Of a stretch of 64,000 nucleotides of DNA, positions 2,196-37,868 are shown piece after piece. The DNA comes from Candidatus Bathyarchaeota archaeon (GTDB lineage: Archaea; Thermoproteota; Bathyarchaeia; Bathyarchaeales; Bathycorpusculaceae), in NCBI GenBank assembly GCA_026014585.1, contig JAOZIA010000022.1, positions 62,001 through 126,000 of the forward strand. Direction: 5' to 3'. The notes under the pieces are model-generated. The model searched no databases. It was not told where the DNA came from and saw only the letters and a program-made list of their open reading frames with translations. Each line of letters opens with the position of its first letter. Position 1 is the stretch's first letter. Both the position numbers and the translations under genes were made by a program.

Positions 2196-3155
2196 TTATT
2201 TTTTGCTGCTCAAAGCACCTAATAGTAAAGCAAGGAGTCCGAGCCCAACAACTGCACCTACAGCTGAGGAGGAGGCGTTCCCTTGAATATAATTGATTCC
2301 CTTCATGATTTTTTGAAGGAGTATTTCTGGTTGGTCGTACTTTGAAAAAGGAATCCATTCGTAGTTACTTTGAACCGTGACACTCTCTTCTTTTAGAAGA
2401 ATCATTGGTTTGTTGATTTGTTTAGCGTAGTTAGTTTCAAACAAGACCCATTGAGAGTTAATGCCATCTTCAGTCAATAATGCGATGAAGATATTGCAGT
2501 CTCGGATCAAGCCTTCAAATTTTTGTTTAAGTTCCGCGCCAGGTGTCTGTTTGTCTTCTCCTATTATCACGGTAATGCCGTAATTGTCTAATTGATTCTC
2601 GAGCTGCCGAACTATACTTAGGTCCCTTGTACTATGGCTTAAGAAAATTCGCGTATTCTTTACCGGTTCTTTTACATGAAAAACCATTGGTTCAGTCCAT
2701 TGTGTTTGTAATGGCTGATAATCGCTCGCTGGAAGGTACTGGGCTTCAACACCGAAGGTAAAACTGTATTCGCCTAAGGCAATATTTTCGGGGACAGAGA
2801 TTAGAATACTGAGATTACGTTTTTGACCAGATTTTACGAGGTCTTTGACGTTTTGTGCAACCCAGGTGTCCTTAGGCATCCATTCAGCCCAAATACCAGC
2901 TTTGTAAAGGTACATATCCTTGTCAGAGTTATTTTCGAATTGAAAAGACACCGAAATGGATTGTTTTGGCATTGCTCGGGGTTCAGTTGGGCTTATGCTT
3001 TTTATGTTCCATTCTGCCTTTTTTGTCTGTACCAAGTGTGCCTTAATTTCTTGGTTAACTTTGTAAACTGTAGATTTCTTGAAACCTTCCTCAATTAGTT
3101 GGGCAGGCGTATAACCCTGTAATAGACGACGGGAAATATCATCTTCTAAAGTCAA
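2196..3155 (-). CDS. TIR-domain protein with N-terminal HTH and C-terminal membrane helix
   Basis: Residues 1-40 carry an archaeal helix-turn-helix-like segment (GYTPAQLIEEGFKKSTVYKV). Residues ~45-165 look like a beta-sandwich. Residues 168-290 form a TIR domain: it opens with RIFLSHSTRD and has the putative catalytic glutamate in SQWVLFE (E240). Residues ~297-315 are a single hydrophobic helix followed by lysines. Many prokaryotic TIR domains cleave NAD+ or make cyclic signals in anti-phage defence; that role is family knowledge, not shown here. The start is TTG, with GAGGGA upstream. The gene is divergent from the giant interrupted gene to the right, and an AbiE-type pair lies beyond that, so a defence context is plausible. 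The mix of DNA-binding, TIR and membrane parts is unusual. Confidence 0.8.
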   Translation of the reverse strand: MTLEDDISRRLLQGYTPAQLIEEGFKKSTVYKVNQEIKAHLVQTKKAEWNIKSISPTEPRAMPKQSISVSFQFENNSDKDMYLYKAGIWAEWMPKDTWVAQNVKDLVKSGQKRNLSILISVPENIALGEYSFTFGVEAQYLPASDYQPLQTQWTEPMVFHVKEPVKNTRIFLSHSTRDLSIVRQLENQLDNYGITVIIGEDKQTPGAELKQKFEGLIRDCNIFIALLTEDGINSQWVLFETNYAKQINKPMILLKEESVTVQSNYEWIPFSKYDQPEILLQKIMKGINYIQGNASSSAVGAVVGLGLLALLLGALSSKK

Positions 3156-3533
3156 GTTCTATGTCCCTCAACACTTGCTATGCAGGTTTATGCTAATAAG
3201 CCTTGTGGACAATGTTGTGGAGTCTACTAAAATGTCCAATCGAATTGGTCGTTGCTTGTGCCCACTACAACATCAAAATGGTAAACATAGGATTCCGGTA
3301 TATACTCGCAAACATAAGCCCACCTTTTTTGGGGAAAAGATGGCATTGTATAGGTTCGATATTTATTGCTGACAGAAAACCATCAACTATGTAACGTCAA
3401 AGTTAGTGTTAATTAAGCTAGTGAATTTTTAACTTTCTTCACAAATTTGAAAAAACAAAAAAACTATTATTTGTGGTACGGTGAATTGATGGTATAATAA
3501 AACTAGTGCATGAATGCTCAAGAGGGGGAAATA
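3156..3533. promoter_or_regulatory. Divergent intergenic region with a TATA-like box
   Basis: This gap separates the TIR gene from the giant gene on the other strand. It is AT-rich on the right, and TATAATAAA at about 3493 is a fair TATA box for the rightward gene. A strong Shine-Dalgarno run (GAGGGGG) sits just before the ATG at 3534. Short open frames in the left half have no coding features that I can support. Confidence 0.4.
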
Positions 3534-6254
3534 ATGTCTAGCGGCTGGTATGTTACGGCTATCAACATAACTAAATGGGTTGAGAATAATCCAAGAGAGG
3601 CACAGGAAATTCTTCCATTATTAATTAAAAGGTTAATTTTTGCAAGCGTAAATGCTTCGCTAATTCGTTTTCCATCTGGCGATAGCATTGTGTTACCTGG
3701 ATGGGATGGTATACTCAAAACTGACAAAGGAAATGCCTTCATACCAACAGGCGACTCTGCATGGGAAGTTAGTACTGAAAAAACTGTGAATACAAAGGCA
3801 GATAGTGATTACCTTAAAAGAACTCAAAATCCCGGTGCAGTTGACAAAAAGAATGCAACATTTGTTTTTGTGACAAGCCAACAATGGAGTGAACTCGCCA
3901 ATTGGGTATCTGAAAAGAAAACAGAAGGGCAATGGGCCGATGTAAAAGCCCTATCTGCTGAAGAATTAGCAGACTGGCTTTCGCAGTGTCCTGCCGTACA
4001 TCGATGGTTTGCTAGATTGATCGGAAATAGACCAGAAGGTGCATGGGATGCTGAACAAGCGTGGGATGGTTGGTCTTTAGCAACAAAACCTCAATGTAAT
4101 ACGAACATAGTCATAGCGGGTAGAAACGATCAATCCGATGAACTGTCAAACGTTATGGCTCAATCCCCGGAAATTATAGAAGTCTCAGCTGAAAACAAGG
4201 ATGAAGCCTGTTCCTTTATTCTCGCAAGTGTTATAACACATCCGTTGCTCTTACCTCGCTTGTTGGTTGTTAGAGATCAGAAAGAATGGGATTTTCTTAT
4301 TCAAAGTGATCATTCACTGATTTTGATACCTCTCTTTGATCCTTTACCCACACTTGGTCAGGCAATCAAAAATGGACACTGGGTACTCCTTCCAACCTTA
4401 GCCCAATTTAATAGAAAGGCAAAATTGGCTCTTAAAAAACCCAGTAAAGATCAACGGTTAAAAGCTCTCGTTGAGATGGGTATACCTGATGAAGACGCAG
4501 AAGACATTGCAAATGACAACAAATATAGGTTGCATATAATCCGTAGACATTATTTACTTGCTCAGGCAGGTCAGCAAAATCCAGAATGGGCTGATTCCGG
4601 AAATGCAGAACCATTGATTGCAGCACTGTTAGCTGGCTCATGGCTATCTGACAATCCTAATGACCGCGAAAAGTTAGCCTATTTAGCCGACATTTCATAT
4701 GACAAGTTAGAACAAACTTTGAACAAATGGTTAATTACAGGCGATTTTCCGGTAGAGCGTCTTGGCAATAAATGGCAAGTAGTATCTGCTATTGATTCTT
4801 GGCAATTTTTAAAGCCCTTTGTAACCGAATCAATTTTAGACAGATTCGGCAAAGTAGCGGTTGAAGTTCTCAGTGAAAACGACCCCCGCTTAGAACTACC
4901 GCCCGAGGAACGATGGCTTGCAGCAATACATAAGAAAGTTACAAAGTATTCGGCGGACTTCCGTCATGGGCTATCTGAAGGATTGGCTATTCTTGGTAGT
5001 TTTGGAGACCGGGACTGCAAAAACTTAACAACAGATTCGATTCAAGCAATGGTGTCTTACTGGTTAATGCAGCTTTTAAATGATAAAATGTCTGAAAAAC
5101 AGTGGGGCTCCCTTGCACCAGAATTGGACTTACTAGCTGAAGCTTCTCCAGAAGTATTTTTAGCAACAGTCGAGAGCAGCCTAAATAGTCAAAGTCCACC
5201 CGTCTTGTCCTTATTTGTTGACGAAGGTACCATGGGTTCCTGCCCGCATCTGGGATTGTTAAGAGGGCTTGAGTATATTGCTTGGGATTTAAATTATACA
5301 AGTCGTGTTGCATCTATTTTAGCCAAACTATCGCTACGTGATCCAGGCGGAAAATGGGCAAACCGTCCATATAGTACACTAAAAGAAATCTTTAGGGGTT
5401 GGTTACCTCAAACAAAGGCGCCCCTTGATAAACGACTTGAAATTCTTGATTCTTTAATTACTTATAATTCAACTTTAGGCTGGAAGTTATTGCTTGATCT
5501 TCTTCCCGGAGACCATGAAACTTCAACCCCCATAGGGATACCTCACTTTAGAGGTTGGGCAAAAGGATGGAAAAAGGGCGTAAGCACCTCAGAATACCGA
5601 CAGCATATATGTGCTATTTCCGAACGTGTCCTTAATCAAATTAACAAAGACCCAGAAAAAGCTTGGTTAAGTGTGAACGAAATTTTAACGCTTCCACAAC
5701 CGTACTTGAGTCAAGCAATTGATCAACTAGACAAAGATGCGAGTGCCCTCAGTAGCCACACTAAGCTTGTGCTGTATAATGAGGTGCTGAAAATAATTTC
5801 TCATCATACTCAATTCTCTAGCGCTGAATGGGCTTTACCTAAGGAATGTATCGAAAAACTTTCAACTATTCACCAAAAGTTAGTTCCAGAAGACTTAGTA
5901 GACAGATACACGATTTTGTTTGACAATTACTTTGCGCCTATCACAAATTCAGTCCCATATACAGAACACGAGGAAAATGAGCGAAGAGGAGAAAACGCTC
6001 GCTCGACGGCTTTAGAGGAAATTTGGAACAAGGAAGGGCTATCTGGAATCGAGCGGTTGGTTGATAGCGTTCAATTCCCAGGGATAGTCGGTAACTCATT
6101 AAGTGCAGCTTCGTTTAGCGCTACTATTGATCAAAGTATGCTACGTTGGCTAGAGAGTACAAATAGGAAACACCAGCTAGCAGTAAATTCTTATATACGT
6201 GCAAAGGCCTTTAAGGCAAAAACCGAATGGTTAGATAATATTTACAACAAGTAG
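3534..6254 (+). CDS. Large protein of unknown function, N-terminal part ended by an in-frame TAG
   Basis: This is the first 906 codons of what looks like a ~1260-residue protein. I chose the ATG at 3534 because GAGGGGG lies 5-6 bases before it; an ATG 24 bases upstream is also open. The N-terminal ~150 residues (PGWDG, then WEVSTEK and DYLKRTQNP) resemble the layout of a PD-(D/E)XK-like domain, but the usual E-x-K reads E-V-S, so activity is doubtful. No Walker A motif is visible. The rest is helical and repeat-like, as in large prokaryotic defence or NTPase-scaffold proteins. The TAG at 6252-6254 is followed by open sequence in the same frame, so the gene is either inactivated or read through. 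It is divergent from the TIR gene. Confidence 0.6.
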   Translation: MSSGWYVTAINITKWVENNPREAQEILPLLIKRLIFASVNASLIRFPSGDSIVLPGWDGILKTDKGNAFIPTGDSAWEVSTEKTVNTKADSDYLKRTQNPGAVDKKNATFVFVTSQQWSELANWVSEKKTEGQWADVKALSAEELADWLSQCPAVHRWFARLIGNRPEGAWDAEQAWDGWSLATKPQCNTNIVIAGRNDQSDELSNVMAQSPEIIEVSAENKDEACSFILASVITHPLLLPRLLVVRDQKEWDFLIQSDHSLILIPLFDPLPTLGQAIKNGHWVLLPTLAQFNRKAKLALKKPSKDQRLKALVEMGIPDEDAEDIANDNKYRLHIIRRHYLLAQAGQQNPEWADSGNAEPLIAALLAGSWLSDNPNDREKLAYLADISYDKLEQTLNKWLITGDFPVERLGNKWQVVSAIDSWQFLKPFVTESILDRFGKVAVEVLSENDPRLELPPEERWLAAIHKKVTKYSADFRHGLSEGLAILGSFGDRDCKNLTTDSIQAMVSYWLMQLLNDKMSEKQWGSLAPELDLLAEASPEVFLATVESSLNSQSPPVLSLFVDEGTMGSCPHLGLLRGLEYIAWDLNYTSRVASILAKLSLRDPGGKWANRPYSTLKEIFRGWLPQTKAPLDKRLEILDSLITYNSTLGWKLLLDLLPGDHETSTPIGIPHFRGWAKGWKKGVSTSEYRQHICAISERVLNQINKDPEKAWLSVNEILTLPQPYLSQAIDQLDKDASALSSHTKLVLYNEVLKIISHHTQFSSAEWALPKECIEKLSTIHQKLVPEDLVDRYTILFDNYFAPITNSVPYTEHEENERRGENARSTALEEIWNKEGLSGIERLVDSVQFPGIVGNSLSAASFSATIDQSMLRWLESTNRKHQLAVNSYIRAKAFKAKTEWLDNIYNK

Positions 6255-11331: not shown

Positions 11332-11643
11332 TTAGCTATTATTTTTGCTTGTTTTCACAGTTTTTGCTTGTATGTCTCTTATTGCTTCGTCACCTTTTAA
11401 AGTGAGTTTGTAAAATTTTATGCGACCAAATTCAAGGCTCATTATTAGGTTTTCTTTTATGAGACAATGAAGATGTTTTTGGATAGTCCACCAATCAAAA
11501 TCTAATTCCTTTGCAATTTGATTACAATTTTTTGGTCCCGAGAGTAATGTTGCCAGAATCTTTTTTCTTGATTCAGCGCCTCTGGAAAGGCTGAGAATAA
11601 CTAAAAAGGTAGTTTCGTAACTACCTCTTTCAATCTTACTCAT
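11332..11643 (-). CDS. Winged-helix transcriptional regulator (ArsR-like)
   Basis: From the ATG at 11643 the product is 103 residues: a winged helix with RKKILATLLSGPKNCNQIAK as first helices, LDFDWWTIQKHLHCLIKENL as recognition helix region, and a wing (FGRIKFYKLT). I prefer this ATG because GAGGCG lies 8 bases upstream; an in-frame TTG at 11760 would add 39 residues. It is the shortest gene in the secretome island. A nearly perfect copy of the shared promoter element lies upstream, so it may control itself and the island. Effector is unknown. Confidence 0.7.
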   Translation of the reverse strand: MSKIERGSYETTFLVILSLSRGAESRKKILATLLSGPKNCNQIAKELDFDWWTIQKHLHCLIKENLIMSLEFGRIKFYKLTLKGDEAIRDIQAKTVKTSKNNS

Positions 11644-11794
11644 GGTTGCGCCTCTGGTATCGCAGTAAAACAATTCAGGTGCTTTTTTAACTCTTGGAAC
11701 TTGAAAATGTGACAAATATGTAAGCCTCTCTTTTTGTGCTTCCTTAATCTCATATAGCAAGTAACCGTTTCTAATTTATAGCAAAAAGCTGTTT

Positions 11795-11836
11795 AGCTCT
11801 ATGTATTAGGACAACTGTACAAAATCATAGTACAGA
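11795..11836 (-). promoter_or_regulatory. Shared regulatory element, copy 1 (before the winged-helix regulator)
   Basis: Read on the minus strand, this has the dyad CTGTAC-N9-GTACAG followed at once by TTGTCCTAA and ATAGAGCTAA. It matches the element at 15441-15482 in 39 of 42 positions by my count. TGTACTA and TGTCCTA begin 21 bases apart, two helical turns, suggesting two binding sites on one DNA face. Confidence 0.7.
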
Positions 11837-11878
11837 ACAAAAAGAAAACGCCCTTTTAATTAAGAAAGTAAACATGAC

Positions 11879-12382
11879 TCATTTAGTAGGTTTCCTCTTT
11901 TTTGAGGCAATATTTACAGCTAATCCAATCAGAATTAACAGACCACCTAATATGGTAAATACTTCTCCGAAAAGAAACTTGTCTGCTTCCCTGTTTTGCA
12001 AATTATCTCTCTGGAACTGAACGCCTACAGGTATGGGGCTCTGTTCAGAGCCTTGATTAGTCAAATAAACATTGTAATCACCGCGCATCCCAAAGTTTAC
12101 CACTAAAGACGTGGGAGTGACTATGTCCTGATCAATTAACGTTTGACCTGCGGGGTCGGTTACCTTTACATGAACAGGTAAAGTTACAGCGTCAGGAATT
12201 GCTCCTGAAGGCGGCTGCTGCGTAGCGGCACTGCCTGAATAACGGAAGTAACCAACAGTTAAATTACCCTCATTAACAGGGGGCGCCAATATAACATAAT
12301 TGAAGGTTTCGCCAACGCCCACTTCCCCAGATGAATAAATTGCATTTTCTGGGACATGGGGCGACCAAGAATTAAGTAACAA
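11879..12382 (-). CDS. Membrane-anchored protein at the end of the ABC-2 operon (start uncertain)
   Basis: The protein has an extracellular beta-rich domain and a C-terminal membrane helix (FTILGGLLILIGLAVNIASK) ending in Lys/Arg. The TTG at 12382 is the only standard start in frame, but it cuts through an N-terminal hydrophobic stretch. The frame stays open upstream to a TGA at 12440-12442 and encodes RIGTVALIVGLILLLNSW, which reads as a signal anchor. The true start may therefore be a rare codon such as the ATA at 12430, which overlaps the permease stop, or ATT. The short spacing places it in the operon with the exporter, so it probably serves the same export or immunity process (inference). 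Confidence 0.6.
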   Translation of the reverse strand: MLLNSWSPHVPENAIYSSGEVGVGETFNYVILAPPVNEGNLTVGYFRYSGSAATQQPPSGAIPDAVTLPVHVKVTDPAGQTLIDQDIVTPTSLVVNFGMRGDYNVYLTNQGSEQSPIPVGVQFQRDNLQNREADKFLFGEVFTILGGLLILIGLAVNIASKKRKPTK

Positions 12383-12426
12383 AATTAAGCCAACAATTAA
12401 CGCGACGGTGCCAATTCTTGTTAGGT

Positions 12427-13227
12427 TTATTCGCGTAGTTCAAACCTCCTGGTGAAGTAAATGTACATTGGAATTAGAAATATCAGCGCATAAACTACGG
12501 ATAACGCCAGAAAGTTCCACGTTGGCAAGGTGCTTTCAAGGGTTCCGTTTGTGAACGTTAAACCGAGTACGCGACCTGTTGCTATAAGCGGAGCTTTAAA
12601 CGGTGTAAGAACTAGATAGTTAGCGAACTCTCCAATGGTGTCCACCCTAAGGGTTGTTATGTAGTATGCTAAGAACCCGATAATCATGGCGGTAACTGCG
12701 GAAGGAATCGTTCGCTTAATAATCAAGGCTATCAGCACTGCTAAGCCGCCGTAGAACATGGCTGCCAAAAACAGTATAGGAAACGCCAACAGGGAAAACT
12801 GTAGTATAGCAAGTACCGTTAAGCCGCTGTAGTAGTTTAAGAAGCTGACAAGTACTGTTACTCCCCATGAGAGAAGTGTTAAAGGAACCACAACAGCAAC
12901 AAACTTTACTATAAAAAGGGATGAACGTGAAACAGGTGCTGAAAGCAATGTCTGCATTAGGCCCTGTTCATAGTCGCGAGCAAAAGACAACGCCAGCAGA
13001 ATCCCGCAAAATAAGCCTAAAGGAAGCATCTGAGCAGTTAAATTATCGTAAAGAACAGTAGTTACCAAACTGTTTAGCGTGGTCTGCAGTTCGGTTTGTG
13101 TGACGATTTTAAACAAGGCGGGTGTGGTTGTGATGGATATTAGAACGATAAAGCCTAACGCTAATTCAAGGATTGGTCGTCCCCAAACACGCCTAATTTC
13201 TGCCTTTAGCAGCTCTGTGGCCGTCAC
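12427..13227 (-). CDS. ABC-2 type transporter permease
   Basis: The 266-residue protein has six predicted membrane helices and the ABC-2 layout: a first helix after a short cytoplasmic start, then the conserved SFARDYEQGLMQTLLSAPVS loop (about residues 81-100) that contacts the ATPase. It overlaps the ATPase gene by four bases (ATGA), so the two form one exporter. The cargo is unknown; the small secreted protein at the head of the operon is an obvious candidate for a substrate or for a peptide against which the exporter protects. Confidence 0.85.
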   Translation of the reverse strand: MTATELLKAEIRRVWGRPILELALGFIVLISITTTPALFKIVTQTELQTTLNSLVTTVLYDNLTAQMLPLGLFCGILLALSFARDYEQGLMQTLLSAPVSRSSLFIVKFVAVVVPLTLLSWGVTVLVSFLNYYSGLTVLAILQFSLLAFPILFLAAMFYGGLAVLIALIIKRTIPSAVTAMIIGFLAYYITTLRVDTIGEFANYLVLTPFKAPLIATGRVLGLTFTNGTLESTLPTWNFLALSVVYALIFLIPMYIYFTRRFELRE

Positions 13228-14150
13228 TGCTCTGCTTCCTCCACGGCAACTTTAAAGATTGATTCCAAGTCCCGTCCAGCTGGTTTGACCTCTTCAAGAG
13301 AACCATCCACTTTTGATACTACCCGTGGCAGAATTTTTTTGAATTTCTCGCTATCGTTGGCTATGACAATGATTTGGTTGTCAATTATGGTTGTGTCTTT
13401 GATGCATTCTTCTTTTTTCAGCAGCTCTGCTACCTGTTTTAGTGGTTGAACTTTTATGGTAAATGCTTGGGTGGATGTCTTGTCAAGTAATTGGTTTAGT
13501 GTTCCGTTTTTTATGGTTCGTCCTTTATTGATAAGAACAAATTTGTCACAAACCTTCTCCAGTTCGTGTAGTATGTGGCTTGAAATTAGGAAAGAGAAGC
13601 CCTCTTTTTTGAGCGAATTAATTATCTCAATCACTTTAGCTCGTCCGATGGGGTCAAGATTTGATGTGGGTTCATCAAGAATTATCAATTCAGGATTTCC
13701 AAGAAGCGCATGTGCTAATCCTATTCTCTGGCGCATACCTGCAGAGTAACCGCCAATTCGCCTGTTTTGGGCTTCGGTGTCAAGTTCAACCAGCTTTAAA
13801 ACTCGTTTGCTCTCGCTTAACGGGTCGGAGAGCCCTTTGAGTTTTGCCATCAATTTTAAGTGTTCAATTCCTGATAAGTGCTCATAAAATGCGACTTTTT
13901 CATACAAAATCCCGGTTTTGCGCCTTATTTGTAGGGATTGTTTCCAGCAGTCGAACCCAAACATTTCTGCGGCGCCTGCATCGGCTTTGATTAAGCCTAA
14001 GCTTAGTTTGATTGTGGTGGTTTTGCCTGCTCCGTTCGGTCCTATTAGGCCGTTGGTTCCTTTGTATATTTTGAAACTTAGACCGCTTAGTGCTTTGGTT
14101 CCAGAGCTAAAGCTTTTTTCTAAGTTGTTAAATTCGCCTAAAGCTTGCAA
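13224..14150 (-). CDS. ABC transporter ATP-binding protein
   Basis: This 308-residue ATPase has Walker A GPNGAGKTT (about residues 38-46), a signature GYSAGMRQR, Walker B LIILDEPTSNLD and a switch histidine (SSHILHELEK). A ~90-residue C-terminal domain follows, as in drug and bacteriocin exporters of the ABC-2 class. Its gene starts 5 bases after the upstream membrane-protein gene and overlaps the permease gene, so they are translated together. Confidence 0.88.
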   Translation of the reverse strand: MQALGEFNNLEKSFSSGTKALSGLSFKIYKGTNGLIGPNGAGKTTTIKLSLGLIKADAGAAEMFGFDCWKQSLQIRRKTGILYEKVAFYEHLSGIEHLKLMAKLKGLSDPLSESKRVLKLVELDTEAQNRRIGGYSAGMRQRIGLAHALLGNPELIILDEPTSNLDPIGRAKVIEIINSLKKEGFSFLISSHILHELEKVCDKFVLINKGRTIKNGTLNQLLDKTSTQAFTIKVQPLKQVAELLKKEECIKDTTIIDNQIIVIANDSEKFKKILPRVVSKVDGSLEEVKPAGRDLESIFKVAVEEAEQ

Positions 14151-14155
14151 GACGG

Positions 14156-14992
14156 TTATTTCGCGCTCCTTTTCTTATGCGTATTTGGTTTCTGATTGCG
14201 AGATTTTCTGTTTCTTTTACCAGCTTTGTATACTATTATGACAGCAATAAGAAACGCTATCACAGCTGTCAAAGCCAATATGATGGGTAACCAATTGGTT
14301 ATTGTTATTAGTTCAAAATTTAAATTTTTGGAATAAGCAGTCAGTCTAAATATACCGCCTCGAATGTAGTCAATACCCATTTCTTTCAATATAACGTCGC
14401 TAAGTGAAGCTCCTGCATATACGAGAATGCCTGTCTTTGGGTCGAATCCCAGCATTGAAGGCATCTGAGATGTTCCGTTAATTACGTGGAATGATTCTAC
14501 CATAATAGTTTTAATGTATTGACCATCTATGGCGGTGAGCGGTTTTGCTGTTCGACTAATTATGTTTCCAACAAGTTGCCATTCATTTGTTTCTGTTAGG
14601 AGGATGTCTCTATCTTTTGAAAAAAAATCTGGAGAAATTACAAATATGGATGGAACAGAGTCAACCAATAATCTATTTCCTGTGAAGTAGCCTTCTGCTG
14701 TCGTTTCTTTAGAAAAAGAGTCTCCTTGAATTGTGAAGTTTATTGTACAGTTGTTTGCTATTTCGGAGATTAAGAGGATCAGCTTCAAGTTTTTAAATGA
14801 GCTGAAACTTCCATTTGTAAATGATAAAATACCAATGTCATCACCATTTTCTGTTATTGATTCTAACTCGACTGAATACGAAGAAGGTCTCTCGATAGCA
14901 CCAGTGATAGGGATAATAGAGGTGAAAAAAATGGGTAATATTAAACAAATGCCCAAGAGGCACAGTTTAATATTTTTGTTTAAATGTACCAC
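14156..14992 (-). CDS. Membrane protein with large extracellular domain, in the ABC-2 operon
   Basis: I place the start at the GTG at 14992: it overlaps the end of the small secreted-protein gene by 13 bases, GAGGG lies upstream, and the product opens with a signal anchor (LCLLGICLILPIFFTSIIPI). A longer frame starting at 15058 lies inside the upstream gene. A beta-rich extracellular domain of ~200 residues with several Asn glycosylation sites follows, then a second helix (LPIILALTAVIAFLIAVIIV) and a basic tail. No family is recognised. Its position between the secreted protein and the ATPase suggests a role in export, processing or immunity. Confidence 0.65.
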   Translation of the reverse strand: MVHLNKNIKLCLLGICLILPIFFTSIIPITGAIERPSSYSVELESITENGDDIGILSFTNGSFSSFKNLKLILLISEIANNCTINFTIQGDSFSKETTAEGYFTGNRLLVDSVPSIFVISPDFFSKDRDILLTETNEWQLVGNIISRTAKPLTAIDGQYIKTIMVESFHVINGTSQMPSMLGFDPKTGILVYAGASLSDVILKEMGIDYIRGGIFRLTAYSKNLNFELITITNWLPIILALTAVIAFLIAVIIVYKAGKRNRKSRNQKPNTHKKRSAK

Positions 14993-15387
14993 CAGTCGCC
15001 CTCGCCGTGATGTGCTGGATAGCTTGGATAAGCCCATGCGTCTGCATAGCCGTACCATGGATTATCGAAGGTCGGATAGAAGTTACCTGCTTCATACGCT
15101 TCGCAAGCATAAGCAACTTTGATATTGCGTTCTTCAATCATACTATAGGTCTGGAATACGCCTGGTGCATACCCTGGGTCGCATGTTGAAACTTCCCAGT
15201 TAATGTTGCCTGTTTGGTCATCCCAGTAGACATTGACATAAGCAGCGACTCTTCCGTACCACGAACCCTGTATGTCTACGTCTTCAGTCATCGGTCCAAC
15301 TTGAGTTGCCTGAACGAGTCCTACTGAAAGCATTGCTGAAGCAAACGCTACAATCAGAAAGGCATTTAACAATAGTTTTGAGTTCAT
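14980..15387 (-). CDS. Small secreted protein at the head of the ABC-2 operon
   Basis: The 135-residue product has a signal peptide (KLLLNAFLIVAFASAMLSVG, cleavage after QA) and a mature part of ~108 residues that becomes strongly aromatic at the end (YGYADAWAYPSYP, then GDWWYI). Two Cys residues could form a disulfide. It is the first gene after a strong copy of the shared element and is followed without gaps by a membrane protein, ABC ATPase, ABC-2 permease and another membrane protein. That layout recalls bacteriocin operons such as those of lactococcin 972, though I see no sequence match. GAGGAAAAG precedes the ATG. Confidence 0.7.
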   Translation of the reverse strand: MNSKLLLNAFLIVAFASAMLSVGLVQATQVGPMTEDVDIQGSWYGRVAAYVNVYWDDQTGNINWEVSTCDPGYAPGVFQTYSMIEERNIKVAYACEAYEAGNFYPTFDNPWYGYADAWAYPSYPAHHGEGDWWYI

Positions 15388-15440
15388 TTTTCTTTTCCTC
15401 TACTTTTTGGAGCAATGAACGATAACTGGAAAAGTTACTT

Positions 15441-15482
15441 AGCTCTATACATTAGGACAACCGTACAAAATCATAGTACAGA
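15441..15482 (-). promoter_or_regulatory. Shared regulatory element, copy 2 (before the secreted-protein/ABC operon)
   Basis: On the minus strand: CTGTAC-N9-GTACGG, TTGTCCTAA, ATAGAGCTAA. It differs from copy 1 at three positions and lies ~55 bases before the ATG of the small secreted protein. It is probably an activator or repressor site joined to the core promoter. Confidence 0.7.
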
Positions 15483-15543
15483 GAAAAGAAAAATTCTTGC
15501 AACTCATTTTTGCTTAACAGACAAAAACTATTGTGATACCGCT

Positions 15544-16893
15544 TTAGCCTGTTTGCTTCCATGGAAACGAGGGAATCGGGAAAGAAGGAAGAGGCGAAAA
15601 ATTAAAAGTAGGCAACGGAGTAAACGAAGGCCAAGGTGCAGGCAACAGAGAAGGCAAAAGAGTTGTGTCGTTCCAATAAAGTAAAGCGGAATAGCCACAC
15701 GCGTCTATAGGCTGCAAGTTGTCATCGTATATTATGTCTAACTTATCACCGTATTCTTGAAGTAGACTGTTAACGATTACGCTTTGGTTAAAGTTGTCTA
15801 CTTCGTTTATTGATTGCCAAAGACCCCAGACCTTGTCTTGAGGACCACGAAATCCATAGGCGTAGCCGTAGGGAAGAACATATGCGGTACGTTCGCTTAC
15901 AGGATAACTATTTCGGGGATGAGTTTTTGCGTATTCCCAAAACCGTTGCATTGCCTGCAGATGCTGAGGCTGCAAGATGCCCTGAGTGTAGTTTTCATTA
16001 GAGTTAAATATGGTGATGTACTTTGCGCCGCTGTTATAAGCGTAAACCATATCAGCGTAGAGGTCATCGCCCGATTCAAGGTAAGGTGGCTTTGTGTAAG
16101 TGTAGGTGATTATTACTCCCCAGTCTTTGTTTTGCATCTGAGCTGCACCTCTGCATAAAGCAACGTTAAGCGGTCTGCTGTTGTTCCAGCCGAACTCTGC
16201 AAAAATGGTGTCGTATCCGCCTTTATAGTCGAACCAGTAAAGCACGTTGTCTGAGGTGAAAAGCGGGTACTTCTTTGTTGAGTTAATGGCGTCTAGAACA
16301 GAGTTGTGCAGTGCGTTGTTGAGGAGGGTTTCGTATTTGGATGTAGCGGTGGTATAATTCGTTACATAAGAATTTGTTTCACTAACTACATTGCTTTGAC
16401 CTGAGGGAGCTTTTATCAAGATTACTGTGCCGCCGGGCCAATTATCCAAAATGTGGGCGCCTGGCTCATCAATAACAGGATGCAGGAAGCCCAAGAGATG
16501 GTCGCCCCAATTGGCTTGGGCTACCTCCAGCCATTGGGCAGCTTGAGAAACAAAATCAGGGTTTGAGCTATCGCTGACGTTTCCAAATGTATTCGGTATG
16601 AAACTTAGGAAGGACAAACCGCGGTCATAAGCATGCTGTAAAACGTCGTTGAGGACGGTGGAATTGTCGGTAATGCCTGTGGTTCCGACCACAAACAAGT
16701 TGGTGAAGCCGCTGACTTGATCGATGATACTTTTAGCCTCGTCTGGTCCCGCTGCGGTGCAGTAAGCCATGTCGACGCCAACGTAGACATCAAGCGCTTG
16801 TGCCGCAGAATTGTTCGTTAGAGTGCTATATAGAAAAACCATTGAAACTAATAGCAAAGAAAGCAGTACAACACTTATTGCCTTACTTTTCAT
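15544..16893 (-). CDS. Secreted TIM-barrel-like protein, possible glycoside hydrolase
   Basis: The 449-residue product has an N-terminal signal segment (residues ~8-27) and ~390 residues whose alternating pattern suits a (beta/alpha)8 barrel: DVYVGVDMAY at the first strand, FLHPVIDEPGAH in the middle with possible catalytic acids, and FAEFGWNN and VIITYTY later. The C-terminus is Pro-rich (PSFTPLPTFNFSPLPSFPIP), like a linker or wall spacer. Family membership is not certain. It is preceded by copy 3 of the shared element ~35 bases before the ATG. Confidence 0.6.
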   Translation of the reverse strand: MKSKAISVVLLSLLLVSMVFLYSTLTNNSAAQALDVYVGVDMAYCTAAGPDEAKSIIDQVSGFTNLFVVGTTGITDNSTVLNDVLQHAYDRGLSFLSFIPNTFGNVSDSSNPDFVSQAAQWLEVAQANWGDHLLGFLHPVIDEPGAHILDNWPGGTVILIKAPSGQSNVVSETNSYVTNYTTATSKYETLLNNALHNSVLDAINSTKKYPLFTSDNVLYWFDYKGGYDTIFAEFGWNNSRPLNVALCRGAAQMQNKDWGVIITYTYTKPPYLESGDDLYADMVYAYNSGAKYITIFNSNENYTQGILQPQHLQAMQRFWEYAKTHPRNSYPVSERTAYVLPYGYAYGFRGPQDKVWGLWQSINEVDNFNQSVIVNSLLQEYGDKLDIIYDDNLQPIDACGYSALLYWNDTTLLPSLLPAPWPSFTPLPTFNFSPLPSFPIPSFPWKQTG

Positions 16894-20786: not shown

Positions 20787-21731
20787 TTAGTTTTGTACCC
20801 AGGTTTGCCAGTTGTAGCTTAAGGCGCCCATTGTGTGGGATTCTCGTACTGGAGCATTTGCGCTAAACTGGGTGCTTATAGCGTTTGTCCAATAGGACCA
20901 GCCTTGTGCGTTGTGTAGCCAGTTCCGATAAAAGACGGCATTTGACGCATCGTTTGTAAATGTTCCGCTGTCACTGAAGATTTCTTTTTGGAAGCCGCCT
21001 TGGACATACAGACTTGGGAGATGACCGCTTCTTACCCATTGATAATTAATCCAGATGTCATAATTGTAGCCATTGCCATCTGAAGTTCCATCTAACATTA
21101 TAACATAGGTGTCTGCTGCACTTGATGCTGTGTTCTTATCTGCATAATATGACCAGCCACCCTCATCGTAGTCATAACTATGCCACTTGTAGGTTTCTCC
21201 ATAGTTGTGCGTGACCAGCACCTCGGTCCAGCTTGATAAGTCACTTAAATCACCTAGCTGCATCGTTACATAATGGTACAATGTTTGCTCTGATCCAACG
21301 TTCATAGAACCGCAAATCATCTCAGAACTGATGCCAGTCCAAGAAGCAGAACTAGTGCGCATTACCGAAACTCTATCAACCCAGCGAAGAGCAGTTTTTC
21401 CATCAGAAGCTACACTTTGCGTTCGGGCGGGCATTTTAGCAAGTTCCTCCGAAGTTAGCGTTCTTCCAATCCATGTTGCACCAGTTTTAGGGTACCAGCC
21501 CATGTTTAGTTTCTCAAGTTCAGCGGTTATTTGTTCAGTGTTTAGCCCTTGTTCTTTTAGCTCTTGGATTTTTAATGTGACTGGGTCAACAAAGTTTTCG
21601 GGAGGTTGCCATTGTTGATTTTGAACTGCTAAAGTATTAGATTGAGCTGCTACTGTAAGAAACATCGAAAAAAGAAGCGAAACCGCGAGAAATGCTGCTT
21701 TAATGCAATAAGCTTTTTTCTTAACCATCAT
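20787..21731 (-). CDS. Secreted protein of unknown function with N-terminal pro-like segment
   Basis: The 314-residue product begins with a signal peptide (AAFLAVSLLFSMFLTVAAQS). Residues ~45-90 form a helical, charged segment (VTLKIQELKEQGLNTEQITA, LTSEELAKMP) that looks like a propeptide. A mature domain follows, rich in Trp and Tyr (YKWHSYDYDEGGWSYYADKN, NYDIWINYQWVRSGHLPSLY), as in extracellular beta-sandwich proteins. No known family is recognised. GAGGTG precedes the start, and copy 6 of the shared element lies ~40 bases upstream. Confidence 0.65.
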   Translation of the reverse strand: MMVKKKAYCIKAAFLAVSLLFSMFLTVAAQSNTLAVQNQQWQPPENFVDPVTLKIQELKEQGLNTEQITAELEKLNMGWYPKTGATWIGRTLTSEELAKMPARTQSVASDGKTALRWVDRVSVMRTSSASWTGISSEMICGSMNVGSEQTLYHYVTMQLGDLSDLSSWTEVLVTHNYGETYKWHSYDYDEGGWSYYADKNTASSAADTYVIMLDGTSDGNGYNYDIWINYQWVRSGHLPSLYVQGGFQKEIFSDSGTFTNDASNAVFYRNWLHNAQGWSYWTNAISTQFSANAPVRESHTMGALSYNWQTWVQN

Positions 21732-21769
21732 TTTTTCACCTCACTTGGGCGTAAGAGCTATCAACATAA

Positions 21770-21802
21770 CTATTAATTTCTACAATTTAGGACACCTGAC
21801 TT
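21770..21802 (-). promoter_or_regulatory. Shared regulatory element, copy 6
   Basis: On the minus strand: AAGTCAGGTGTCCTAAATTG followed by TAGAAATTAATAG. The TGTCCTAA and TAGAAAT blocks are exact; the GTAC dyad is not evident. Confidence 0.6.
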
Positions 21803-21816
21803 GATTGGCTATCCCT

Positions 21817-22272
21817 TTATAGGGCGCCTTTAAGCCATACTCTACTTGTTTCATAACAAAAAATTATAAGAGCAATACACGTAATCGCGATAAAGAAAAA
21901 ATATTCTCTACTAAAAACTGTTGGCTTTAGACAAGTCAGCTCAAGAACCAATGCTACACCCATAAAAACAGAATAGAAAAGGTACCTGGGAATAATTAAA
22001 CGGCTGATTTTTATGCAGCTATCCAAGATTACGCGGTTTATAGCATAATTGCCCAATTCTTTTTTCACCAAGCCCGCATGCTCTAGCTTGGAGAGATGAT
22101 ATTGCACTATTGAGGGGCTACTGAGGTTTAGTTTTCTTTGGATTTCCCTAATTCCAAGGGGTTTATTGGCTTTTAACATAAAACGGTAGATGTCAAGTGT
22201 GGTTCCTTTTAGGATGTCGGTTGATTCCTTAGTCGTTAACCTCAACCTCGAACCTAATATATACTGCAACAA
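21817..22272 (-). CDS. Membrane-bound winged-helix regulator
   Basis: The 151-residue product has a winged helix in residues ~20-80 (TLDIYRFMLKANKPLGIREI, PSIVQYHLSKLEHAGLVKKE) and then two hydrophobic helices (YLFYSVFMGVALVLELTC and YFFFIAITCIALIIFCYE). It would be a transcription factor anchored in the membrane, a layout known in archaea. It closes the secretome island on the right. An operator-like dyad matching that of copies 1 and 2 lies ~40-65 bases upstream of its start, so it may regulate itself and, with the regulator at 11332, the island (inference). Confidence 0.75.
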   Translation of the reverse strand: MLQYILGSRLRLTTKESTDILKGTTLDIYRFMLKANKPLGIREIQRKLNLSSPSIVQYHLSKLEHAGLVKKELGNYAINRVILDSCIKISRLIIPRYLFYSVFMGVALVLELTCLKPTVFSREYFFFIAITCIALIIFCYETSRVWLKGAL

Positions 22273-23262: not shown

Positions 23263-23604
23263 ATGATACGTCTCTTTTCGGTGCCTTTCAAAGAGATGAG
23301 CGCTTTGCGGGGGCAGATAGTTTTTATGGTAAGCCTGAGAGTTGGGCAAGGTGATATCTGCTTGGTTAATCTTGTCGAAGACTGGATGGTCCTTGAGCAA
23401 TACGCTGGCGAAAAACGCGGATTCTACCAAATCATAGGCGTAGACGGAAACTTTGAAGTACGTGTGCAAACTGGCCGAGTCGGCTACATAAAACAGTTCA
23501 AACGAGCTGATGATCCACGGCTAATCAAGATTTTGGATTTCTGCAAAAAACACCACTACATCCAAATCATCCAACGCATCCGAGGAGAAAAATTCTTCAA
23601 ATAA
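23263..23604 (+). CDS. Small protein of unknown function before the integrase
   Basis: The 113-residue product starts at an ATG that touches the stop of the broken winged-helix gene. An internal ATG (MSALRGQIV) could be the true start. It has a beta-rich middle (WMVLEQYAGEKRGFYQIIGV) and a basic helical end (RLIKILDFCKKHHYIQIIQR). No family is recognised. It lies in a run of four genes leading to the recombinase and may belong to the same element. Confidence 0.45.
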   Translation: MIRLFSVPFKEMSALRGQIVFMVSLRVGQGDICLVNLVEDWMVLEQYAGEKRGFYQIIGVDGNFEVRVQTGRVGYIKQFKRADDPRLIKILDFCKKHHYIQIIQRIRGEKFFK

Positions 23605-23635
23605 CCAGCAAGGCACCAGGTTGAGGCGAGAGGGA

Positions 23636-24127
23636 ATGGCTGAACTAACATTAAACGCAACACAACCCAAAAAAAGTGTTGGACCAAAAACAGGAGGCAC
23701 ACCCCATAAAGCACCCTCAAAGGATGCTGGAACAAGCCCCCTAAACTCACCTCAACCCCTCAAACAGCTGATATTTGTCCGCTATCTAGACCATGTCTTG
23801 TACAATCGCAGCAACGCGCTATCGATGAAACCTCAAATCAGAGAAGCCGTAGGCTGGATAATCTACAACTGCGAACGGTACATCATTTTAGCTTGGGACA
23901 GAGACGCTGATCCGCCCACACTTACGGGTGGCGACCCCAAAGCGTCAGGTTTAGTGCTGCTTAAAAGCGACATTTTGGAGTTGCAGCTCCTCAAAACTTG
24001 CCCGCAACTACTACAAAAAAGTTTTAACTGGAATTTAAATTGCAAACCAACTATACAAGAAGGCGAGTATGCGTTCCGACCAACGGAGCGAAAAACTCAC
24101 TCCTCAAAAGGAGATAAACCGAAATGA
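23636..24127 (+). CDS. Unknown protein coupled to the recombinase gene
   Basis: I chose the ATG at 23636 because GAGAGGG lies directly before it; a TTG 15 bases upstream is also open. The product (163 residues) has a low-complexity N-terminus rich in Pro, Lys and Thr and then a folded part (QLIFVRYLDHVLYNRSNALS, AVGWIIYNCERYIILAWDRD). Its stop overlaps the recombinase start (ATGA), so the two are translationally coupled and it may act as an accessory factor for integration or excision. No homologue is recalled. Confidence 0.55.
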   Translation: MAELTLNATQPKKSVGPKTGGTPHKAPSKDAGTSPLNSPQPLKQLIFVRYLDHVLYNRSNALSMKPQIREAVGWIIYNCERYIILAWDRDADPPTLTGGDPKASGLVLLKSDILELQLLKTCPQLLQKSFNWNLNCKPTIQEGEYAFRPTERKTHSSKGDKPK

Positions 24128-25551
24128 TAGAAAGAACTGCCTTAGCCCCCGCTATAACCCGCAACCGCCAACTCTCCGTTGAAGAACTAAAAAGCCTAAA
24201 TCTCCCATTGACTTTCCAAGGCGACCTAGTGATAATCTACAATAGCTTAACAGGTTGGAAACTCAAAAAGCCAGTAATAATCGAACTCAAAAACCTCTTA
24301 GACGCCAAAGAAAAAGGCCTCGTCGACTACATCATCAGGTCCTGCCTAAACGACCGCCCAGGAGTAATTCCCTTCATATTTGACAACCAAAGCATGCTAA
24401 AACTCGCCCGCCATTTCCTACGCCATCTTTCAGGCTCATACAGAAGCTGCTTAACCTACTCCGTCAACGTCAAACAATACGCAACCTGGCTCGGATACAA
24501 ACCAGACCTAATCATCCAAGACGCCAAACCCGTCGGCGCCATCCCCGACCCACTAAAAGTCCAAAACCACTGCGCATTCCTAAACGATTACTTAGCCGAA
24601 CTCCAAGACAACGACCTCAAACCAACAGCCGTTAACAACTGCATAAAAGCCGTAAAAACCTTCTACCACGTAAACGGCATAGAAGTTAAACTCAACGAGC
24701 GCCTCCCCCGAAAAGTTGCCTACAAAGACAGAGCCCCAAAACCCGAAGAAATCACCGCAATGATAGACAAATCCACAATCAGAGAAGCTTTCATCATAGC
24801 TGCTTTAGCAACAGGTGGATTTAGAGAAGGAACCTTCTGCAAACTCAAATACCGACACGTCAAAGAAGACCTAGAAGCCAACATAGTGCCAATACACATT
24901 CACGTCGAAGCCCAAATCACCAAAGGAAAATACCATGACTACGACACCTTCCTAAATGCGGAAGCAAGTTACCTGCTTAAAATGTACATAGCTGACAGAA
25001 GACGAGGCAGCAGATACACGCCTCCAGAAGAAATCACCGACGACTCACCGTTAATCCGAAGCGACCACAATGCTCACAAAATCGTTGGCGTTAGCGAAAA
25101 AACCCTCAGAAAAATCGTGCATACAATCGCTGTTGCAGCTGACGTTTCAAAAAAGCTCCCAGACAGTTGGATGTACAGCGTTAGAACCCATAGCCTACGA
25201 AAATACTTCCGAACTCAAATGAGCGCCTCAAAAATAGACAGCGAAATCATCAAATATTTTATGGGCAAAACCATCGACACCTACGAAGACGTCCAAAGCT
25301 TAGGCATCGAGACGCTAAGAAACCTCTACACCTCAGCAGGCTTGGCGATTAGACCGAAAACTCAAGTCAACAGAATTGAGCAACTCAAAGAAATCATACG
25401 TGCATGGGGACAGAACCCTGAAGAAATCTTAACTAAGGATGCGCTTATGCGGGGAAACATCACTGAGCTCCCAGACCAGGTACAGAGTCATCAGCTTTCT
25501 GTTCTGGCTGACCAACTTAAGCAGTTGATCAAACGGGAGGTTTCAGTTTAG
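24124..25551 (+). CDS. Tyrosine recombinase (integrase)
   Basis: The 475-residue protein has an N-terminal SAM-like core-binding domain (~residues 90-185) and a C-terminal catalytic domain. The visible catalytic set is R234 (GGFREGT), K267 (TKGKY), H356 and R359 (RTHSLRKYF), K382 in place of the usual second His, and the nucleophile Y387 (IDTYED). A ~90-residue tail follows. The stop lies 36 bases from the 3' end of tRNA-Asn, the classic arrangement of an element inserted in a tRNA gene. The third codon positions are rich in A and C, unlike flanking core genes, which suggests foreign origin. Confidence 0.88.
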   Translation: MIERTALAPAITRNRQLSVEELKSLNLPLTFQGDLVIIYNSLTGWKLKKPVIIELKNLLDAKEKGLVDYIIRSCLNDRPGVIPFIFDNQSMLKLARHFLRHLSGSYRSCLTYSVNVKQYATWLGYKPDLIIQDAKPVGAIPDPLKVQNHCAFLNDYLAELQDNDLKPTAVNNCIKAVKTFYHVNGIEVKLNERLPRKVAYKDRAPKPEEITAMIDKSTIREAFIIAALATGGFREGTFCKLKYRHVKEDLEANIVPIHIHVEAQITKGKYHDYDTFLNAEASYLLKMYIADRRRGSRYTPPEEITDDSPLIRSDHNAHKIVGVSEKTLRKIVHTIAVAADVSKKLPDSWMYSVRTHSLRKYFRTQMSASKIDSEIIKYFMGKTIDTYEDVQSLGIETLRNLYTSAGLAIRPKTQVNRIEQLKEIIRAWGQNPEEILTKDALMRGNITELPDQVQSHQLSVLADQLKQLIKREVSV

Positions 25552-25587: not shown

Positions 25588-25664
25588 TGGCGCCGCCGAA
25601 AGGACTCGAACCTTTGACCTACTGATTAACAGTCAGTTGCACTACCTGGCTGTGCAACGGCGGC
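25588..25664 (-). tRNA. tRNA-Asn (anticodon GTT), CCA encoded
   Basis: On the minus strand the acceptor arms are GCCGCCG and CGGCGGC, then discriminator G and CCA (25588-25590). The anticodon stem ACTGA/TCAGT holds the loop CTGTTAA with anticodon GTT. The T-arm reads AAAGGTTCGAGTCCTTT. No intron is seen. The 3' half faces the recombinase gene and is the probable attachment site; I found no second copy of it in this window, so the other end of the element lies elsewhere or is lost. Confidence 0.95.
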
Positions 25665-37244: not shown

Positions 37245-37571
37245 GGCAATCAATGGTAGCAGAAGGTAGTGAATGGCGCAATGCAATCGGGCAATAGTCT
37301 GGTCTATAAGAGCTATTTTTTGTCCGTCAACCTGCCATAGCCCATCGGGTTCCCATAAACAATTTTGGCACTATGAAAACATGAAAAAACCAGCAATACA
37401 CACCACCAAAAGTTTTCAACATGTTAATGGTTTGATTTTCAACAATTACAGACCTCCCCTCTATCGTTTCTGCAATGAATTTCTAATAGGCTCCAAATAG
37501 ACAGCAAATAGGGTTTTGTTCACGGAGCCTTTATTGCCTTCCCCGCTTCATATTTTGTTGGGTTGGTGAGT
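37245..37571. other. Intergenic stretch before RNase P RNA
   Basis: No gene is recognised in these ~330 bases. The promoter for the RNase P RNA probably lies in the right part. A short open frame is present but lacks coding features. Confidence 0.4.
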
Positions 37572-37868
37572 TGGTGTGTGGCTATCGCTCCTTTGGAGTG
37601 AGGAAACTCCGCTCACATGTAGAATTGCAGCGTCCTCTCGGGGCGCATGGCGAGAGCCTTGGCAACGGAGCAGAAACGACACGTCCCCCAAACGCTGATG
37701 AATGAGGCACCCTAAAATGCCGACGAGTCTGGGTGGAAGCGGTGAAACGGCCGTCCTGCAAGTGGAAAGGGCAAACAGACGCCGATGAAGAATCTACCGG
37801 AAGGCGACAGGTAGCCCGATTAGCCAAATGCCACAGACAACAAAAAGCGGGTTACAACCAACACACCA
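37572..37868 (+). ncRNA. rnpB: RNase P RNA, archaeal type
   Basis: The sequence contains the conserved region I (GAGGAAACTCCGC at ~37600), the central GGTGAAACGGCCGTCC and GCAAGTGGAAAGG segments, and the 3' conserved AGCGGGTTACAA (~37846). TGGTGTGT (37572-37579) pairs with ACACACCA (37861-37868) as helix P1, which sets the ends to within a few bases. The length of ~300 bases is normal. It is the ribozyme that cuts the 5' leader from pre-tRNA. Confidence 0.9.

Follow-up and report, generated by a model that had tools for sequence, protein, structure and literature searches.

A Bathyarchaeia operon encoding an ABC-2 transporter and a hypervariable secreted protein: a possible archaeal bacteriocin-like system

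Lactococcin 972 operons, those of Lcn972 and streptococcin B among them, are presented in the accessible parts of PMC11796350 and PMC4055356 as starting with the gene for a Sec-secreted, unmodified small protein and continuing with presumed immunity genes and those of an ATP-binding cassette (ABC) transporter, with a regulator gene adjoining in the case of streptococcin B; the accessible part of PMC11796350 treats immunity through the second and third genes as presumed and not proven. In archaea, proteins proposed for antagonism are termed archaeocins, and the available portion of PMC10105419 names only halocins and sulfolobicins as archaeocins described before its own lanthipeptides. Here, we analysed a stretch of 64,000 nucleotides from a Candidatus Bathyarchaeota archaeon (hereafter the window, labelled G000:C21:62001-126000, G000 being the window's genome), which carries at positions 11879-15387 an operon for a small secreted protein, two membrane proteins and an ABC-2 transporter. 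A secreted small protein with a dedicated ABC transporter is already known as a general kind; the new feature here is that the core of the secreted protein is hypervariable and its frame conserved. We propose that the operon is an archaeal bacteriocin-like system with ABC-2 self-protection, a reading to which we give somewhat less than an even chance.

The five minus-strand open reading frames (ORFs), named S, M, A, P and C, were found exactly where a preliminary description of this DNA had placed five tightly packed genes, neighbours overlapping (S/M and P/C, as well as A/P by 4 bp) or being at most 5 bp apart (M/A, 5 bp). S (14980..15387; this and all other features of the operon and its control region are on the minus strand) encodes a 135-residue Sec-secreted small protein with a hypervariable mature part, as judged from the ORF, its relatives and the signal peptide. 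M (14156..14992) consists of a signal or anchor, a predicted LolA/LmcA-like ectodomain and a C-terminal membrane helix; its longest ORF begins at 15058, and the start is probably the GTG at 14992, within the end of the S gene. A (13224..14150) is an ABC ATPase (ABC_tran, 6.6e-22, 79 bits at a gathering score of 25) and P (12427..13227) an ABC-2 permease (ABC2_membrane_2, 4.4e-10, 39.7 bits at a gathering score of 27.2), so that both Pfam domains of an ABC-2 transporter are present above their gathering scores. C (11879..12436) probably starts at an ACG codon (12434-12436) upstream of the listed TTG, since relatives with a complete N-terminus begin with MRIN or MRLN in line with this codon; the resulting extension adds an N-terminal membrane segment, which would give C a membrane segment at each end with an ectodomain between them. 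A perfect AGGAGG motif lies at 12445-12450, 8 nt ahead of the candidate start; the ACG, which reads ATG in relatives, may be an uncommon start codon or else an error in the sequence. No family credibly covering S, M or C was found in Pfam, NCBIfam, PHROG or PADLOC, the Pfam scan giving nothing credible and PHROG no match for any of the three. The PADLOC models of anti-phage components gave no match for S, M, P and C, and only generic matches of ATPase or helix-turn-helix (HTH) type for A and the regulator described below. An IMG/VR search with the permease alignment gave no relative, and no association with viruses was seen; a PDB sequence search gave nothing credible for S, for C or for a neighbouring protein of 449 residues.

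The signal peptide of S has an A-x-A-type end and no lipobox, as read by eye from the sequences. Eleven S proteins showed no known family in Pfam and NCBIfam up to an E-value of 10, in agreement with the earlier view of S as a secreted small protein of no recognised precursor type; the aromatic C-terminus mentioned on that occasion holds for the window's clade (the window, G057, G020 and G034) and not for the wider set, in which the signature is a near-invariant W-x-x-P, often with GG close to the C-terminal end. Six loci of the window's class, referred to as type 1, were compared (L031, L032, L034, L035, L038 and L090, all carrying the leader element described below). In DNA, the leader had a mean pairwise identity of 61%; the values were 70% for the codons of the signal peptide, 42% for the mature part and 66% for the sequence that follows the stop codon. 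At the protein level, the signal peptide was 54.2% identical (shuffled 20.6 +/- 3.0) and the mature part 23.0% (shuffled 20.6 +/- 2.3); at the DNA level, the observed 69.6% and 43.1% compare to shuffled values of 41.5 +/- 2.0 and 38.5 +/- 1.1, respectively. Since the mature part is above the shuffled level in DNA and at the shuffled level in protein, some homology is left in the DNA and almost none in the protein of these six loci. Over 45 pairs from 10 loci, excluding L032 with its frameshifted transporter, the median identity was 25% for the signal peptide, 18.4% for mature S, 30.9% for M, 60.6% for A, 47.6% for P and 40.8% for C, and among the listed pairs of the Bathycorpusculum clade, M (51-59%), A (73-80%) and P (61-75%) stand against 14-29% for mature S.

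Relatives of P were found in 13 and relatives of S in 10 of the 256 Bathyarchaeia genomes by profile search (cut-off for P 1e-12, with a best match of 1.2e-93 in the weakest genome), and a search of the family with the window's own sequences gave S in 6 and P in 11 of 90 genomes. The named relatives come from Bathyarchaeia and several carriers are Candidatus Bathycorpusculum metagenome-assembled genomes (MAGs), the system being present also in another family (G141) and in the distant relative G544. The locus of the latter (L157), a far relative within the phylum with the order S-M-A-P, was found by the M profile, which matches 9 of 398 genomes of the phylum. Fifteen type-1 loci with an M gene and readable upstream DNA could be assessed (the window, L027 to L035, L037, L038, L086, L090 and L157), L036, L039 and L087 being omitted because of contig ends or rearrangement. 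In 13 of the 15, S lies directly before M, the five-gene order of the preliminary description is kept, and its recurrence in many related genomes argues against a chance arrangement. The S profile search returned 19 rows, 12 of them full-length and every one of these in the operon (11 directly before M, one directly after C); a full-length S apart from the exporter thus did not occur, and the reverse, an exporter set free of S, was seen in part only. The seven partial rows comprise three decayed copies after C (two of them being the parts of a single gene interrupted by a transposase gene), three S genes of a second class, type 2, matched mainly over the signal peptide and in one case over residues 1-79, and an isolated match of 25 residues away from any operon (G014:C3), which is probably due to chance. 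An extra S gene after C is intact in G014:C218, transposase-split in G014:C224 and decayed in G035:C53. In L034, the second S-like gene after C (3003-5057) is halved by the transposase gene and has stop codons in one half. Several systems can share a genome, with three of type 1 in G014 and two of each type in G035.

The AlphaFold2 model of M, obtained from 14 relatives, had a predicted local distance difference test score (pLDDT) of 85.5. VIA-align placed LmcA first (Z 10.2, 4.6 Å over 163 aligned residues), followed at lower ranks by YmcC-like and DUF1849 proteins, MucB/RseB (Z about 7) and LolA/LprG/LppX (about 4.4-6); Foldseek with the same model gave no match below an E-value of 0.001. 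M is thus predicted to be a LolA-superfamily-like open beta-barrel on a membrane anchor, the barrel being seen in the predicted model, and to resemble the carriers of hydrophobic ligands LmcA, LolA, LprG and RseB. It shares with this superfamily the predicted fold of the ectodomain and differs in being membrane-anchored, archaeal and devoid of Pfam or NCBIfam matches.

With lactococcin 972 operons, the locus shares a small protein with a Sec-type signal (read by eye) encoded first in an operon with ABC genes. It differs in that none of the 11 S proteins matches the family model and in that it has an ABC-2 permease together with M and C, in an archaeon, instead of the two-gene orf2-orf3 set. 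Membership of that family was rejected on the profile scans, and on the bacteriocin reading the operon would work like lactococcin 972 operons by analogy, without being one of them. Lipid II, the target of Lcn972, is a peptidoglycan precursor, which archaea are not expected to have. A and P can further be likened to the ABC-2 self-protection transporters of LanFEG/BcrAB type, in which an ABC-2 ATPase and permease are likewise encoded together with a secreted product in one operon; here, a LolA-like M and a twice-anchored C are present in addition, and A scores well below the curated cut-offs. Its best NCBIfam models were DrrA, GldA and a lantibiotic-protection ATPase, all below cut-off, TIGR01188 and TIGR03740 (lantibiotic-protection ABC; 158.1 bits at a curated cut-off of 309.75) being among these matches. 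From the archaeocins, S is set apart by having no family match.

The signal peptide of S also matched operons with different mature S proteins (G011, G010 and G035:C93). In this type-2 class, A, P, C and M are homologous to those of type 1 and the mature parts of the S proteins are unrelated: profile comparison linked the M proteins at 97.9% probability (141 columns, C-terminal half) and the C proteins at 97.1%, P was linked by BLAST, and the S profiles align over the first 62 columns only, signal peptide included. The ATPase tree separates the two classes with full support. The type-2 permease was matched in 16 of the 256 genomes at a cut-off of 1e-8, the weakest matches, in G000 and G196, being possibly other ABC-2 permeases; with 13 and 16 genomes, respectively, both classes are patchy in occurrence. 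Among the 17 type-2 loci examined, M and its surroundings were readable in 14 (in L152, L153 and L158 the contig breaks off within the locus), and a small secreted ORF of 121-164 residues lies near M on the same strand in 11 of these, several of these S genes being assigned by position, size and signal peptide and not by homology. In several type-2 loci, S and M are on the strand opposite to A, P and C, an arrangement suggestive of an S-M unit.

Upstream of the S genes of the six type-1 loci compared above, a conserved stretch of about 140 bases can form nested helices. Copies are located at L031:4720-4838, L032:7450-7591, L034:8758-8896, L035:4326-4465, L038:2671-2811, L090:6194-6334, L091:6680-6822, L092:868-1010, L111:5704-5848 and L112:901-1038. 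In the ten sequences, the 28 pairs were 89.3% paired, compared to 30-45% with partners slid, and nine pairs vary in both partners, a number attained in 5 of 500 shuffles, for which the mean was 4.8; a count of this kind is inflated by kinship among the sequences. RNAalifold gave a weak overall energy of -11.1 kcal/mol. These results are suggestive of an RNA role, and the stretch is a candidate for a structured leader, acting as RNA or as DNA. Seven of the sequences went into a model that had ten strong matches in 6 of 32 genomes of the genus, seven of them by construction, as the model's own sequences, and three of them new; six weaker matches fall on the opposite strand at these locations. 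Nine matches precede S genes and one precedes a secreted rhodanese-like gene; the S genes served are of both types, and the secreted proteins encoded behind the element are of two unrelated kinds of cargo. The model had no match in the window's genome, and Rfam gave none for the element in the eight sources scanned.

A gene for a winged-helix regulator (11332..11643, ArsR/HTH_45-like; HTH_45 1e-4, HTH_5 1.4e-4) is a sixth member of the set and its likely controller. In G057, G020 and G141, the operon has a relative (55-63% identical) in first place, ahead of S; in the window, the gene follows C and is preceded by a separate copy of a 64-bp promoter repeat. The two copies, upstream of S (15430..15493) and of the regulator gene (11784..11847), are 84% identical, with a 44-base core pattern expected 0.00 times by chance, and contain the palindrome CTGTAC-N9-GTACAG, perfect before the regulator (11815-11835) and with one mismatch before S (15461-15481). 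A related site, TTGTAC-N9-GTACAA, lies ahead of a second winged-helix gene at 21817-22272. The palindrome was not seen 5' of the regulator genes in G057, G020, G141 and G035:C93, which confines the operator claim to the window. The regulator adjoins 4 of 15 type-1 and 5 of 17 type-2 loci, and was rejected as a marker of the system since it is found in the genus also without the operon (G018, G019, G024 and G025). In L161 (5006-10070) and L162 (5536-10635), a relative heads an operon of FtsX-like permeases, an ABC ATPase and a repeat-rich secreted protein, named by eye. The window's pair of a secreted 314-residue protein and a membrane-bound winged-helix regulator (20787-22272) recurs in the same two loci, close to the relatives of the operon's regulator.

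On the bacteriocin-like reading, S would use its signal peptide to leave the cell by the Sec route, be freed from the membrane, in line with the missing lipobox, and act on competing, probably related, archaea. M would bind S, or the membrane component attacked by S, on the outer face of the producer, and the A/P transporter, with C as a second subunit on the outer face, would pull S or the complex off the membrane as self-protection rather than for export of S; the winged-helix protein may repress the operon and its own gene through the shared palindrome. As S has its own signal peptide, it should be exported by Sec, which leaves the ABC transporter available for a different task and weakens the earlier alternative of a surface-protein export system. 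The hypervariable mature part, the extra and decayed S copies, the several systems per genome and the patchiness make it likeliest that this task is to clear the producer of S or of its target complex. The original proposal of a bacteriocin with self-immunity in this way gains support of an indirect kind, from the variable mature part behind a conserved signal, the extra and decayed S copies and the patchy, multi-copy occurrence, and its chance remains slightly less than even.

Several points weigh against this reading. S resembles no known bacteriocin among the Pfam and NCBIfam families, and its AlphaFold2 model (pLDDT 51) is too low in confidence for use of the fold or a check for a beta-sandwich. 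LolA-like folds are common, so that a Z-score near 10 gives a fold and not a function, and the lower conservation of the M and C ectodomains may only reflect their extracellular location. The exporter set lacks S in two of the 15 readable type-1 loci (L030 and L037), three of the 14 readable type-2 loci show no S ORF (L146, L147 and L148), and relatives of the regulator are also located at other sites, one being next to an ABC operon of FtsX/MacB type. In the single close type-2 pair, G011/G010, mature S is 77% identical compared to 69% for the signal peptide, and is thus no more variable. The ratio of non-synonymous to synonymous substitution rates (dN/dS) of S in this pair is 0.49, below 1, with 0.26 for M, 0.10 for A, 0.43 for P, 0.28 for a fused P-type gene and 0.26 for C: S is its least constrained gene, without detectable positive selection.

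The leading alternative, which we nevertheless consider unlikely, is a module for envelope or surface maturation. In it, S would be secreted to become part of the surface or matrix, M would be a carrier of LolA-like kind that chaperones S or a lipid to the cell surface, and the ABC-2 transporter would power release. The carrier-type fold of M fits this explanation, as does the adjacency of S and M, seen in 13 of the 15 type-1 loci as well as in type-2 loci with A, P and C on the other strand; however, a housekeeping role predicts a widespread, slowly diverging set, and the one found is in 13 of 256 genomes, multi-copy and, in related loci, with mature S at shuffled identity, and no anchor or lipobox was seen in S. 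Less probable still is a defence against toxic peptides or lipids from outside, with M, A, P and C as a resistance pump and S as a secreted decoy or ligand binder. The drug-resistance and lantibiotic-protection ATPases among the below-cut-off models of A would agree with it, but such matches are generic for ABC-2 systems; the palindrome-linked regulator and the existence of versions without S (L030) are also in its favour. Against it, extra S copies are not obviously needed by a decoy. Interaction with an animal host or gut partner, with S as a secreted effector or adhesin that has diversified under pressure from the host or from phages, is very unlikely. In its favour, several carriers are Bathycorpusculum MAGs, from a genus which, in the accessible part of PMC10684969, has termite-gut members. 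Against it, the same source lists MAGs of the genus from peat soil, sediment and digesters, the system extends to G141, of a different family, and to the distant G544, and no binding domain was recognised.

Beyond the single operon, the bacteriocin-like reading can be extended to an undescribed family of archaeal antagonism systems, in which a conserved leader and signal peptide would frame an interchangeable hypervariable toxin, each copy having its own LolA-like partner and ABC-2 pump, with a structured RNA element in the leader of one clade, two classes in Bathyarchaeia and a divergent member elsewhere in the phylum. We put this forward tentatively, as more probably wrong than right. No description of the operon was found in the literature covered, which did not extend to subscription papers and preprints.

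Other features surround the operon in the window, whose carrier archaeon is described as gut- and sediment-type. The secreted protein of 449 residues mentioned above (15544-16893) has no recognised family; L028, L029 and L037 have relatives of it in the neighbourhood of the operon. A terminase-nuclease-like ORF and, next to it in order, an ABC-ATPase/acetyltransferase fusion (82-2107) possibly mark an integration hot spot; an 80% identical copy of the fusion is found near the operon in L028 and similar ORFs were noted by eye in L145 and L163. A three-gene integrase module abuts a tRNA-Asn gene (23263-25551 and 25588-25664) and is also present near the operon in L028; as no repeat of the tRNA-Asn end was found within about 104 kb using 14-mers, an integrated element is not demonstrated. 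The archaeal RNase P RNA is located at 37566-37866 (190.7 bits).

Archaeal protein antagonism is known from few lineages. If the bacteriocin-like reading is true, the Bathyarchaeia, known here only from uncultured genomes, would gain a diversifying secreted-weapon system, and a LolA-type fold would be tied to archaeal self-protection. Even if S is no toxin, it is unusual, and in need of explanation, that leader and signal peptide are conserved where the core they enclose has fallen to shuffled identity.

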